DNA of 64,000 nucleotides from Micromonospora sp. MW-13 (lineage in GTDB: Bacteria > Actinomycetota > Actinomycetes > Mycobacteriales > Micromonosporaceae): contig NZ_QKKX01000057.1 in assembly GCF_003434305.1 (NCBI RefSeq), positions 1-64,000 on the forward strand. Direction: 5' to 3'. A program made the translations under genes and the position numbers. The notes beneath the pieces were generated by a model. It was not told where the DNA came from. It did no database searches and was given only the letters and a program-made list of their open reading frames with translations. Within the stretch, counting starts at the first letter, position 1. Each line of letters opens with the position of its first letter. Of this stretch, positions 29,233 to 51,475 are shown piece after piece.

Positions 29233-29336
29233 AGCCCCAGGATCATTGCGTTGTCGTGGGCGCGGTCCCTGGTTGGCCCGGGGGTCGTGGCCCGGGGTGG
29301 AGCTGTGGGTGGGGCGGTCGATGCCGTTGGGGCGGC

Positions 29337-29478
29337 GCCTATGGAGCTGAGTCGTTTACGTCATCACCGCCGGTCGGGCCACCGCCGTCGCGTTACCCAC
29401 CGCCCCGTCGGGTCGTCGCTTGCGGTCGCCGATCGCGGCGGGCGTGGGTGATGTCGTATCCGACTCAGCTCCATAGGC
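29337..29478. repeat. 142-bp inverted-repeat element (copy 1 of the TGGAGCTGA family)
   Basis: The left arm 29337-29368 and right arm 29447-29478 are inverted copies matching at 28 of 32 positions, with the outer 18 bp perfect (GCCTATGGAGCTGAGTCG). The spacer is 78 bp. The left arm positions 29342-29367 match the left end of the element at 50035-50197 in 24 of 26 bases. No transposase is encoded. Confidence 0.85.
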
Positions 29479-29714
29479 ACCGGAAGGCATACCAGCCGTT
29501 GAGCGGCACCCACGCCAGGGCCCTAGACCTCCTGATCGAAGCGCTCCCGCCCGACTTCGCGATCGCCCTGGGTGAAGCCCGCCGCCCGCTCCACTCGGGC
29601 CGCCCCTTGATCGTCTGCTGGTCACCGGCGCGACACGCCGGGCGGGACGCCGGTACGCGACAGGTGCTCTCCGTGGTCGCCGAGATCGTTGCGGTATTTC
29701 GCACTGCACAGTAG
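29451..29714 (+). CDS. short hypothetical ORF starting inside a repeat arm
   Basis: The 87-residue ORF has strongly GC-biased third positions over most of its length (THARALDLLIEALPPDFAIAL, residues 20-40), which supports coding. However, its first nine codons lie in the right arm of the inverted-repeat element. Either the element inserted at or created the start, or the true start is further in (for example near residue 20). No domain is recognised. It ends 10 nt before padR. Confidence 0.4.
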   Translation: MSYPTQLHRHRKAYQPLSGTHARALDLLIEALPPDFAIALGEARRPLHSGRPLIVCWSPARHAGRDAGTRQVLSVVAEIVAVFRTAQ

Positions 29715-48187: not shown

Positions 48188-48718
48188 CTACCTCGGGGTG
48201 ACCACCTTTTCAATCTCGCGGGCGTAGCGGAGCTGGGGGGTGCGGGTGGTGCCGATGTGCTCGTCGCGGCACTCCCCGGTGGGGTGCCAGCCGCCGCGCT
48301 CGTAGAACCGGCGGGCCCGGGCGTTGCGCTCCAGCACCCACAGCACCGCCCGGCGCCAGCCCCGGCCGCGCATGGTGGCCAGCGCGTCCACCATCAGCGC
48401 CCGGCCGGTGCCCCGGCCCCGCTCGTCCGGGTCGAGGTGAATGGCGTTGAGCAGGCCGGTCGCCGGGTCGTCCTGGTCGTCCGGGCCGAGGTAGCTGAAC
48501 CCCACCAGCCGGCCGTCCCGCTCTGCCACGGTCATCAGGTTGGTGTCCCGCTCCCACGTCCAGCGCTCGGCCCAGTACGCCCCCATCGCCTCCGGTGTCG
48601 GGTCGGCCAGCGCCGCCGCCTGCAGGAACGACGAGTACGCCGCCACTCGGGACCGCTGGTGCAGCGCCCCCACCGGGCGCAGGTCGTCGACGGTCGCGTG
48701 GCGCAGGGTGATCGTCAC
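48188..48718 (-). CDS. GNAT-family N-acetyltransferase
   Basis: The 176-residue protein has the GNAT fold: [20 protein letters not shown], the acetyl-CoA-binding loop [16 protein letters not shown], and the end [26 protein letters not shown]. The acceptor is unknown. Its GTG overlaps the rnz stop (GTGA), so it is translated together with ribonuclease Z. Confidence 0.9.
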
Positions 48719-49638
48719 CCGCCCGAGGCTACCCGCCGGGGCGGCACTGGCACGGTGGTCAGGTCCTCGGCGACCACCAGCTCGCCGGCGAAGTGCTCCC
48801 GGGCCTCGTCGGCGAAGCGCCGGGCGTCGGCGTACCGCTGGGAGAAGTGGGTGAGCACCAGTGTGCGTACCCCCGACTCGGCCGCCACCCGGGCGGCCTG
48901 GCCGGCCGTGAGGTGCCCGACCTCGGCGGCGAGCGCGGCCTCCGACGCCAGGAACGTCGACTCGATGACCAGCAGGTCGGCGTGCTCGGCGAGGGCGTAC
49001 ACCCCGTCGCAGAGCCCGGTGTCCATGACGAAGGCGAACCGCTGCCCCGGCCGGGTCACGCTCACCTCGTCCCGGCTGACGCGGCGTCCGCCGACCTCCA
49101 GGTGGCCGGCGCGGAGCAACTCCCCGACGGCCGGTCCCGCGATGCCGTACGCGGCCAGCCGCTCCGGCAGCATCCGGCAGCCGTCCGGCTCGACCAGCCG
49201 GTAGCCGTACGTCTCGATCGGGTGCCGCAGCCGGCGGGCCTCCAGCGTGCCGGCGCGCAGGGCGATCCGCTGCCCGTCGGCGGTGATCGGCTCGACGGCC
49301 AGCTCGGCGGTCTCGTGGAAGCTCGACGCGTGCCGCAGCCGGGCGAAGTACTCGGCGCCGCCGGCCGGGAAGTGCACCGCCACCGGGCGCGGGACCCGGT
49401 CCAGGGAGAGCCGCTGGATGGTGCCGGGCAGGCCGAGGCAGTGGTCGCCGTGGAAGTGGGTGACGCAGATCCGGGTCAGGTCGGTGGCGGTGACGCCGGT
49501 GTGCAGGAGCTGCCGCTGGCTGCCCTCGCCCGGGTCGAACAGGATCACCTCGTCGTCCCAGCGCAGCACGTACCCGTTGTGGTTGCGCGCCCGGGTCGGC
49601 GCCTGGCTGGCCGTCCCGAGCACCACCAGCTCACGCAT
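48715..49638 (-). CDS. rnz: ribonuclease Z
   Basis: The 307-residue metallo-beta-lactamase enzyme trims 3' ends of tRNA precursors, which matters here because the encoded tRNA lacks CCA. It has the metal motif HFHGDH (residues 61-66), the early [29 protein letters not shown], and a final LTHFSQRY histidine. ATG 49638 is the chosen start because it gives the normal N-terminus (RELVVLGTA); upstream codons in frame are not family-like. No Shine-Dalgarno or -10 box is close. Confidence 0.92.
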
Positions 49639-49857: not shown

Positions 49858-49929
49858 CTAGCGGACAGCCACCTCACGAGTCCGATTGCTATACAAGTCT
49901 GGACCACCTCCTTTCCCGTGTACGACCAC
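49858..49929 (-). CDS. candidate leader peptide upstream of rnz
   Basis: A 23-residue ORF (GTG start) ends PDLYSNRTREVAVR. Inside it is a near-perfect Shine-Dalgarno (AAAGGAGG, minus strand of 49907-49914) placed 10 nt before a TTG that would give MYSNRTREVAVR. Such a strong ribosome site in a gene-poor stretch is unusual. It could be a real short peptide or part of a regulatory RNA. The evidence is the SD strength and position only. Confidence 0.35.
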   Translation of the reverse strand: MVVHGKGGGPDLYSNRTREVAVR

Positions 49930-50034
49930 GCTATCCACTTCCCCGGGGTGGCGGCAACGGATTTCGATCACAGGGCCGGAAGGGCGGCGACCGTTCGTGC
50001 CGGCGTCCCTGGTCAGGAGGTAGTTGTGCGGACG

Positions 50035-50197
50035 CTTTGGAGCTGAGTCGTCTACGACATCACGCGCCCGGCGCCCGATCCGTCCACGGCATCACGCGCC
50101 CGGCGCCCCGATCCGTCCACGACACGCGCCCGGCGCCCGATCCGTCCACGACATCACGCGCCCGGCACCCGATCCGTCCACGACATCAGCTCCAAAG
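50035..50197. repeat. palindrome-ended element with 32-bp tandem units (copy 2 of the TGGAGCTGA family)
   Basis: The ends CTTTGGAGCTGA (50035-50046) and TCAGCTCCAAAG (50186-50197) are perfect 12-bp inverted repeats. Inside lie four imperfect tandem units: 50054-50085 (32 bp), 50086-50118 (33), 50119-50147 (29) and 50148-50179 (32), consensus core CACGCGCCCGGCGCCCGATC. There are no spacers, so it is not CRISPR. The left 26 bp (50038-50063) match copy 1 at 29342-29367 in 24 positions. Confidence 0.9.
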
Positions 50198-50287
50198 GGA
50201 GCCGACGAGGTCTCCGGCCGCCCTCGACCGTCGGCTCACCACTACCGAACCGCCCCCGCCATGCGCACAGTCAGCCGAGGGGGGCGT

Positions 50288-51475
50288 TCAGTCGGTGATC
50301 CCAATCGGGCCCTCGCGCGGGCCCTCCTCGCTGGCCGGCTGCACCGCCAGCGAGGGGAAGTCGGCCAGGTCGCCCTCCGGCTCGGCGTCCCACTCGGGGA
50401 AGACCAGGTCGCTCTGGAGGTAGAGGCAGAGGAGCTGGGTCAGGTGGGCCAGCCCGTCGAGGTGGGTGCGCTCGTGGCCGTGGGTCGCGTCCACCCCGAA
50501 GCCGAGCAGGGCCACCCGGGCGTGCGCGCCAGCCTCGACCGCCGCCGCCACGTCCGAGCGGTAGTAGTCGAAGACGTCCCGGACCAGGTTTACCCCGTGC
50601 TCCCGGGCGATCGCCGCGAGGTTGCGGGTGAGGTGGTAGTCGAACGGGCCGACGCCGTCGCCCATCGCCAGGGTGGCCGCGTTCTCCCGGGACTGCTGCC
50701 CGGGGGCGACCACCGCGGCGTCCACGGAGACGATCTCCGCGACGTCCGGGTCCAGGCCGTGGCTGGCGCCGTGCCCGATCTCCTCGGTGACCGTGACCAG
50801 CAGGTGCGCGGTCACCGCCGGGGTCACGCCCGCGTCGACCATCGCCTTGAACGCGGTCAGCACCGCCGCCACCCCGGCCTTGTCGTCCAGGTGCCGGGAC
50901 TTGACGTACCCGCTGGGGGTGACCGCCGGGTTGGGCAGGAACGCCACGAAGTCCCCGGCGTCGATGCCGAGGGCACGCAGCCCGGCCTCGTCGTCCACCG
51001 GCTCGTCGACCCGGACCTCGACCTGCTCCCAGCCGACCCCCTGGAGGTCGACGCCCTCGTTGTAGCGGTGCCCGCTGGCCTTGAGCGGCAGCACCTGGCC
51101 GGTGACCACCCGGTCCAGATCGTCGGTGAAGATCCGCACGTGTGCGCCCTCGGCGAACCGGGCGCTGTGCGTGCCGATCTGCTTCAGCTCCAGCCGGCCG
51201 TTCTCCTTGAGCCGCTTCACCATGCCGCCGATGGTGTCGGTGTGCACCACGATCGCCCGGTCCGCGCCGGTCTCCCTGGGGCCCGGCAGGCAGGCGCTGA
51301 GCGCGCCCCGCCGGGTCAGCGTGGAGGAGATCCCGAGCGCGGAGAGGCGCTCGCCGACGTACTGCTGCACGTGGTCGGTGCGCCCGGACGGGCTCGGGAT
51401 CTCCAGCAGCTCCACCAGCACCTGGCGGAGGTAGTCCAGGTCGATCTTCAGCGGGACGGGATTGCGTGCGGTCAT
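50288..51475 (-). CDS. NAGGN-system M42 family peptidase
   Basis: The 395-residue M42-type aminopeptidase belongs to the osmoprotectant NAGGN trio. Metal ligands are visible as H78/D80 (VVHTDTIGG), D197 or D198 (RHLDDKAGVAAVL), E231/E232 (VTEEIGHG), D252 (SVDAAV) and a late His in THGHERTH. It may process or degrade the dipeptide osmolyte; its exact role is not established. The ATG overlaps the ngg stop (ATGA). Confidence 0.92.
   Translation of the reverse strand: MTARNPVPLKIDLDYLRQVLVELLEIPSPSGRTDHVQQYVGERLSALGISSTLTRRGALSACLPGPRETGADRAIVVHTDTIGGMVKRLKENGRLELKQIGTHSARFAEGAHVRIFTDDLDRVVTGQVLPLKASGHRYNEGVDLQGVGWEQVEVRVDEPVDDEAGLRALGIDAGDFVAFLPNPAVTPSGYVKSRHLDDKAGVAAVLTAFKAMVDAGVTPAVTAHLLVTVTEEIGHGASHGLDPDVAEIVSVDAAVVAPGQQSRENAATLAMGDGVGPFDYHLTRNLAAIAREHGVNLVRDVFDYYRSDVAAAVEAGAHARVALLGFGVDATHGHERTHLDGLAHLTQLLCLYLQSDLVFPEWDAEPEGDLADFPSLAVQPASEEGPREGPIGITD

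Follow-up and report, generated by a model that had tools for sequence, protein, structure and literature searches.

In the BOX elements of pneumococci, end modules flank a repeated middle module. REP sequences and their inverted pairs (BIMEs and REPINs) are described in part of one account (PMC3733652) as short, intergenic, imperfect palindromes with variable spacers, among which single ends are exceptional. The same part of that account gives known REPs a GTAG or a CGTC tag at one end, and indicates that CGTC REPs too apparently occur without a dedicated transposase (PMC3733652). BrickBuilt of Porphyromonas gingivalis is presented, in part of a further account (PMC4596501), as a spacer-free minisatellite enclosed in small inverted-repeat ends, multicopy and intergenic. 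REP-like repeats without a known transposase pose the question of how such repeats spread.

Here, we describe positions 50035-50197 of the window, which is the whole 64,000-nt stretch of DNA that was analysed and comes from contig 57 of the 7.09-Mb, 152-contig genome of Micromonospora sp. MW-13. These positions are one copy of a hairpin-forming repeat that is dispersed between genes in many Micromonospora species, and its inner part has been multiplied here. Compared with REPs and REPINs as that part of PMC3733652 presents them, the Micromonospora repeat is likewise imperfectly palindromic, intergenic, mostly located between co-directional or convergent genes and mostly paired, with one large hairpin possible. 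It differs from them in its consensus end, CTTTGGAGC-TGANTCGTNNACGACATCA, which by eye shows no GTAG or CGTC tag at its foot, and in its outer arms, which are complementary to each other and vary from species to species. The nearest layout that we met is that of BrickBuilt, since the window copy is also a minisatellite without spacers between inverted ends; however, in the part of PMC4596501 concerned, the 23-nt tandem part of BrickBuilt is the element itself, whereas the 32-bp array is found in one copy of a family that is defined by its ends. The likeness to BOX elements is in layout only, and the host is a different one.

Six actinobacterial names were looked for in the text of PMC3733652, and none appears. 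Searches of open papers in PubMed Central listed none whose title or abstract describes a Micromonospora repeat of this kind, and searches with the repeat's sequence strings gave no Micromonospora paper by title among the matches listed. Across about 100 sampled species, orthologous sites with and without an element of this family can be compared, the arms differ by species, and the window copy is a case of a minisatellite apparently grown from the palindrome itself. It thereby becomes possible to test by what means REP-like repeats lacking a RAYT are moved, and what maintains or rewrites the pairing between their arms. We consider it likely that these repeats are a Micromonospora family of REP-like, short, dispersed palindromic repeats, arranged mostly as inverted intergenic pairs and spread by a trans-acting enzyme, and that the array of the window copy arose by slippage.

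Structure of the window copy

An earlier note on this DNA had described perfect 12-bp inverted ends enclosing 32-bp tandem units without spacers, and both are borne out. The ends, CTTTGGAGCTGA at 50035-50046 and TCAGCTCCAAAG at 50186-50197, are fully complementary with 139 nt between them, and the units follow each other directly in steps of 33, 29 and 32 bp. TRF reports the array at 50049-50188 with a period of 32 bp, 4.4 copies, 90% matches and a score of 229, the top score among the 135 rows for the 64-kb window; the next scores are 227, given to this array under a different period, and 192.

The unit map accounts for all 163 bp (arm 9; core 19; spacer/core 18+14, 19+11, 18+14 and 18+14; arm 9). 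Read on the forward strand, the left outer arm CTTTGGAGC (50035-50043), whose perfect inverted partner lies at 50189-50197, is followed by the left core TGAGTCGTCTACGACATCA (50044-50062), a 19-bp imperfect palindrome like the cores at the ends of the listed elements. Array unit 1 (50063-50094, 32 bp) joins the spacer CGCGCCCGGCGCCCGATC to the partial core CGTCCACGGCATCA, with one A>G change, and unit 3 (50125-50156, 32 bp) again consists of spacer and partial core, both units being supported by the unit map and TRF. Between them, unit 2 (50095-50124) has a 19-bp spacer with one added C and a truncated core, CGTCCACGACA, that is missing TCA. Unit 4 (50157-50188) combines a spacer carrying one G>A change with the right core CGTCCACGACATCA, which runs in the same direction as the left core. 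The right outer arm (50189-50197, reverse strand) is the complement of 50035-50043. In whole or in part, the core is present five times. Ends and array had been taken as two features; both are present, but the repeated unit includes the inner core of the end, so they are one structure.

The view that the element resembles neither an insertion sequence nor a CRISPR agrees with this layout. A CRISPR is ruled out since the units abut without unique spacers, and an insertion sequence since the window copy, at 163 bp, has no transposase gene between its ends. A known RNA family is likewise ruled out: at gathering score, Rfam has no match at 50035-50197, and its only matches in the window are Ms_IGR-5 and one tRNA.

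A dispersed repeat family in Micromonospora

In the own genome (the genome carrying the window copy; below, G labels denote sampled genomes and L labels fetched loci), the 12-mer CTTTGGAGCTGA occurs at 32 places in 7.09 Mb, 17 forward and 15 reverse. The same pattern read backwards occurs at none, so the 12-bp ends are not due to chance. With up to one mismatch, CTWTGGAGCTGA was found at 87 places versus 18 for the reversed control, and 53 of the 62 exact CTWTGGAGCTGA arms in this genome have an inverted partner (≤1 mismatch) within 420 bp. Six of the nine unpaired exact arms lie within ~110 bases of a contig end (G000 contigs C27, C28, C29, C42, C57 and C97), which suggests that a longer repeat breaks the assembly there. 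The own genome yielded 30 two-armed elements of 72-379 bp, among them one whose left arm is repeated three times in tandem and which measures 143 bp by the extraction rule and 67 bp by the later element rule. The family end is made up of the outer arm CTTTGGAGC and the 19-bp imperfect palindrome TGANTCGTNNACGACATCA, the latter in either orientation, giving a core of 19 bp and an end of 28 bp.

Including fetched loci, 124 two-armed elements were listed, from which one chance pair (L049 at 515) was removed. The resulting 123 elements are neither random nor independent, as they combine own loci, fetched loci matched by arm or core, and orthologous copies. They measure 59-946 bp, with a median of 146 bp computed before the chance pair was dropped, and 0 of the 123 lie inside a called gene according to a rough codon-usage gene caller. 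The spacer between facing ends usually differs from copy to copy. When the 104 interiors of sufficient length were compared, they fell into 59 similarity groups, comprising 44 singletons and 15 groups with more members; the largest holds 18 related interiors, 14 of which are own copies nested in a larger element. For 16 own elements outside that larger nested repeat, shared sequence ends ≤5 bp from the arm in 63 of 100 alignments, 6-15 bp from it in 27 and further away in 10, up to 55 bp; L007 and L015 have 55 bp in common past the right arm.

The terminal arm was also sought in related genomes, and family ends were found across Micromonospora. Ends with a CTWTGG arm, mostly of one core orientation, are present in 35 of 101 genus genomes, and ends of the other core orientation, with other arms allowed, in 40 of 101; the reversed control gave 0 in each case. 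Among sampled Micromonosporaceae, 31 of 300 genomes match, all of them in one genus among 44, and no related ends were found in the 43 other sampled genera of the family. In a scan of named genomes, 78 of the 80 matches listed (80 of 116) are in Micromonospora; the remaining two, single matches in Vogesella and in a Pseudomonadales MAG, may be chance.

Origin of the tandem array

The array appears to derive from the core, and its growth was probably by copying slippage. The left and right cores of the window copy are in direct orientation, which the near-palindromic core permits; by core type, direct-orientation cores are seen in 75 of the 123 elements, a sample biased by how the loci were found. 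Judging from the unit map, the window copy would have begun as a minimal pair of 9+19+18+14+9 = 69 bp, to which slippage or unequal crossing-over between direct cores 32 bp apart would have added units of 33, 29 and 32 bp. Such growth is favored because 69 + 33 + 29 + 32 comes to exactly 163 bp, an argument from arithmetic and layout.

Core-like repeats are also found inside L183 and L176. Tandem arrays occur in 52 of the 123 elements versus 64 of 240 length-matched flanks (Fisher p 0.003), and are thus only moderately enriched. The tandem array is a true trait of the window copy, but a 32-bp array is not a trait of the family.

Occupied and unoccupied sites

The element lies where the earlier note had placed it, 3' of the gene for an M42 peptidase of the osmoprotectant NAGGN system (50288-51475, reverse strand; TIGR03106, 481 bits versus a cut-off of 398; PF05343) and 5' of the rnz leader. 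The peptidase stop codon ends 90 bp from the element. On the other side, the ribonuclease Z gene (48715-49638, reverse strand; NF000805, 536 bits versus a cut-off of 416) has upstream of it a match to the Rfam family Ms_IGR-5 (RF02471; 49688-49921, reverse strand; 95.4 bits, gathering 45), which is outside the element. In most of the relatives shown for the peptidase locus, conservation of the Ms_IGR-5 sequence is apparent by eye. Visual inspection also shows an 8-bp stem, GAGCCGAC...GTCGGCTC, next to the element at 50199-50237; it lies 3' of the peptidase gene and is possibly the terminator of that gene.

The M42 peptidase gene is present in 73 of 101 genus genomes, and 30 loci, the own one included, were compared, with arm types beyond CTATGG, CTTTGG and CTGTGG allowed in calling elements. 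In 25 of the 30, including the closest relatives G011 (96% protein identity) and G006 (95%), the 600 bp that follow the 3' end of the gene contain no element, so that relatives do lack it at the same locus. Elements are present at the own locus (CTTTGGAG), at L061 and L078 (CTTTCGAG) and at L060 and L068, where a CTACGAAG-type hairpin lies 12 bp from the peptidase stop; L070, with one isolated match, was classed among the loci without an element. Since four of the 29 relatives carry another arm type, the peptidase locus is not simply empty. No clean base-exact empty site for the window copy was seen by eye, the intergenic flanks being too diverged to align base by base. A longer conserved gene at the window locus was rejected on comparison of these loci, and what the earlier note had set against a mobile or variable element, namely the same unit number at one locus only and within such a gene, did not occur.

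A second site is that of the own element L012, which follows an allantoate amidohydrolase gene (NF006770) and immediately precedes hutF (formimidoylglutamate deiminase, NF006681). All 101 genus genomes contain the hutF flank, and 100 were analysed, G030 being left out. The site is occupied in 26 of 100 species, a count that leaves out G070 (CCCCGT core, damaged arm) and the possible remnants G061 and G077. Of these elements, 25 start exactly 12 nt from the start codon, and in G002 the arm is 21 nt from it, after a 9-nt duplication. At many unoccupied sites the two genes nearly abut. On a FastTree tree built from the hutF flank, the occupied species are scattered.

The arms at the hutF site, and in some species the cores too, differ (CTTTGGAG, CTGTCGAG, CTTTCGAG, CTTCGGAG, ATGTGGAG and others), and the sister genomes G000 and G011 have a different arm and a different core at the same base. 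The right arm is within one mismatch of the left in 14 of the 26 elements versus a shuffled mean of 9.3 and maximum of 15 (200 shuffles). Seven of the 26 have no right arm within two mismatches and may be one-armed remnants. Arms of different copies agree more often within a genome than across genomes: they do so in 336 of 538 within-genome pairs, whereas shuffling gave 34% on average and at most 45% (2000 shuffles; 150 ends among the matches listed). It is conceivable, if rather doubtful, that arms are rewritten in concert within a genome, with both ends of standing elements replaced; this would come about through conversion between copies, or through an enzyme that coevolves with the arm and re-inserts elements at exactly the same base. 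The hutF pattern itself may stem from conversion in place, from loss followed by regain, or from insertions that hit one base.

At a third site, a doxX gene with orthologous surroundings, L223 and L226 have both ends, L224 has the left end only, L225 and L227 have the right end only, and L228, L231 and L240 have none. Whole genes can be found inside facing ends, namely those of the DoxX family PF07681 (L082, L200, L207 and L223) and of an MBL-fold hydrolase, PF13483 (L083 and L196). In other species there is also a closed form with one core, which extends for 31 bp from TGGAGCTG to CAGCTCCA, plus arm tips. It is known from particular matches: in the search for this short form the reversed control exceeded the pattern in nearly every genome, which makes the counts meaningless, and only particular sequences were used. 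Several other closed-form matches are one conserved coding-like sequence outside the repeat family. The single ends and the closed form indicate that no unit smaller than the end recurs and that ends are most commonly arranged as inverted pairs, as with REP pairs, and given the single ends at doxX, the moving unit could be one end. Some element sites are common to several species, which implies that many copies are old.

Mobility of the repeat

At some sites the element is present and at the same sites in relatives it is absent, as seen for peptidase (25 of 30 loci without it), hutF (26 of 100 species occupied) and doxX (mixed). Of the three guesses made in the earlier note (a mobile repeat, a structured RNA or a protein-binding array), a non-autonomous mobile repeat is the best supported, with its ends dispersed and most peptidase loci free of it; present mobility is putative. 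The pair, or a hairpin made from it, would have been spread, probably in the form of a folded single strand, by a putative enzyme that works on the ends in trans. In a BLAST comparison with 8 genomes, the joined flanks of 12 among the 30 own elements matched mostly on one side (alignments at 4 of these sites read by eye).

RAYT transposases, which belong to PF01797, were considered as the mobilizer. No PF01797 (Y1, RAYT-family) transposase was found in the own genome. Across the genus sample, PF01797 is present in 28 of 101 genomes, that is, in 12 of 35 element-positive versus 16 of 66 element-negative genomes, and hence the repeat is not associated with RAYT-family transposases. On both points the Micromonospora repeat departs from RAYT-linked REPINs, and mobilization as such a REPIN was rejected. 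The element works like a pair of REP sequences, but it is not classed as a RAYT-dependent REPIN, as the transposase test failed and the known tags were not recognised.

An alternative that we regard as improbable, though not negligible, is a classical MITE, in which an internally deleted insertion sequence would retain 28-bp terminal inverted repeats that a DDE transposase recognises, and the spacer would be the remnant of its parent. Like MITEs, the repeats have terminal inverted repeats (30 own elements have both arms), are intergenic and dispersed, and leave some sites with and others without an element; moreover, copies of the repeat are carried by a distinct 337-bp element, which has ends of its own and whose interior is indeed shared. 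However, most interiors are unrelated apart from nested and orthologous copies (44 of 104 are singletons). Facing ends 1-6 kb apart were found in L230 only (1060 bp; among fetched loci, many of which are only ~3 kb), where they surround a doxX gene rather than a transposase gene, and no transposase gene lies between the ends among the long interiors listed. In addition, no target-site duplication was seen by eye in the listed flanks, and both the closed 31-bp form with a single core and the single ends exist. Because most interiors are unrelated and no parent element was found, the family is not classed as a MITE, and REP-like pairs spread by an enzyme in trans are the reading that we prefer.

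Folding, arm pairing and gene context

The whole window element is predicted to fold as one long hairpin. For 50031-50201, the predicted folding energy is -81.6 kcal/mol on the forward strand (z -6.39) and -109.4 kcal/mol on the reverse strand (z -6.31); on neither strand did any of 200 shuffles fold as well. Full elements of ≤260 bp have a mean z of -5.6 (n=91), and interiors fold like flanks (mean z -0.39, n=70, versus -0.52, n=69; Mann-Whitney p 0.68), so that the folding potential resides in the ends rather than in the spacers. Arms match each other in 76 of the 123 elements versus a shuffled mean of 50 and maximum of 63 (2000 shuffles); in the own genome alone the excess is modest, with 17 of 30 versus 11.9, and 62 of 2000 shuffles reach 17. 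Thus, of the guess that the element is a structured RNA, the folding potential stands, and a role in a transcript is putative. For the host, the consequences are probably slight or neutral, those of a strong predicted hairpin between the 3' end of the peptidase gene and the rnz leader.

If the element were a functional RNA hairpin, selection would keep its arms paired, and the hairpin would stabilise the 3' end of the transcript, mark a site for processing or act as a module for ribosome binding. The strong predicted folding on both strands and the arm matching above shuffles would fit such a role, as would the gene context: 33 of the 123 elements lie between convergent, 14 between divergent and 59 between co-directional genes, with 17 undetermined (copies not independent). 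At the hutF site of several species, moreover, the arm end and flank read by eye as AAAGGAGG before the start codon. Nevertheless, 74 of 100 hutF sites were not classed as occupied and 25 of 30 peptidase loci do without the element, the arm matching at hutF is weak, and no sigma-70 promoter or terminator match was found in 49900-50350. In palindromes, template switching can keep arms matched without selection, and this other cause of matched arms also counts against a functional RNA hairpin, which we consider unlikely. Finally, a protein-binding array, in which the core GTCGTNNACGAC would be an operator-like dyad with several sites in a row in the window copy, seems very unlikely: the core is indeed a dyad that recurs there, but units 1 and 2 contain mutated or truncated versions of it, the count used gave just one or two core half-sites for 111 of the 123 elements and three or more for 8, and copies are fewer between divergent genes.

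Associated repeats

The window contains a second family member (29339-29476, forward strand; arms CTATGGAG), nested in a larger dispersed element of 337 bp (29235-29571) with imperfect inverted ends of its own (CCAGGGTNATTGCGNNGTCG-like). Fourteen own-genome copies of the 337-bp element align, each with a CTATGG- or CTTTGG-armed palindromic repeat in the middle. A sister repeat has similar outer arms and another core (TGGAGCTGCCCCGTCTGTGCGGGCAGCTCCA in G011, L284), and is also present in G010, G025, G076, G086 and G099; in G010, G011, G025, G076 and G086 it occupies the hutF-site position of the main family. In L091, repeat ends (at 2163, 7524, 12968 and 18308) recur every ~5.4 kb within a large repetitive PKS-like frame, and were apparently duplicated along with PKS modules (PKS identity by eye).
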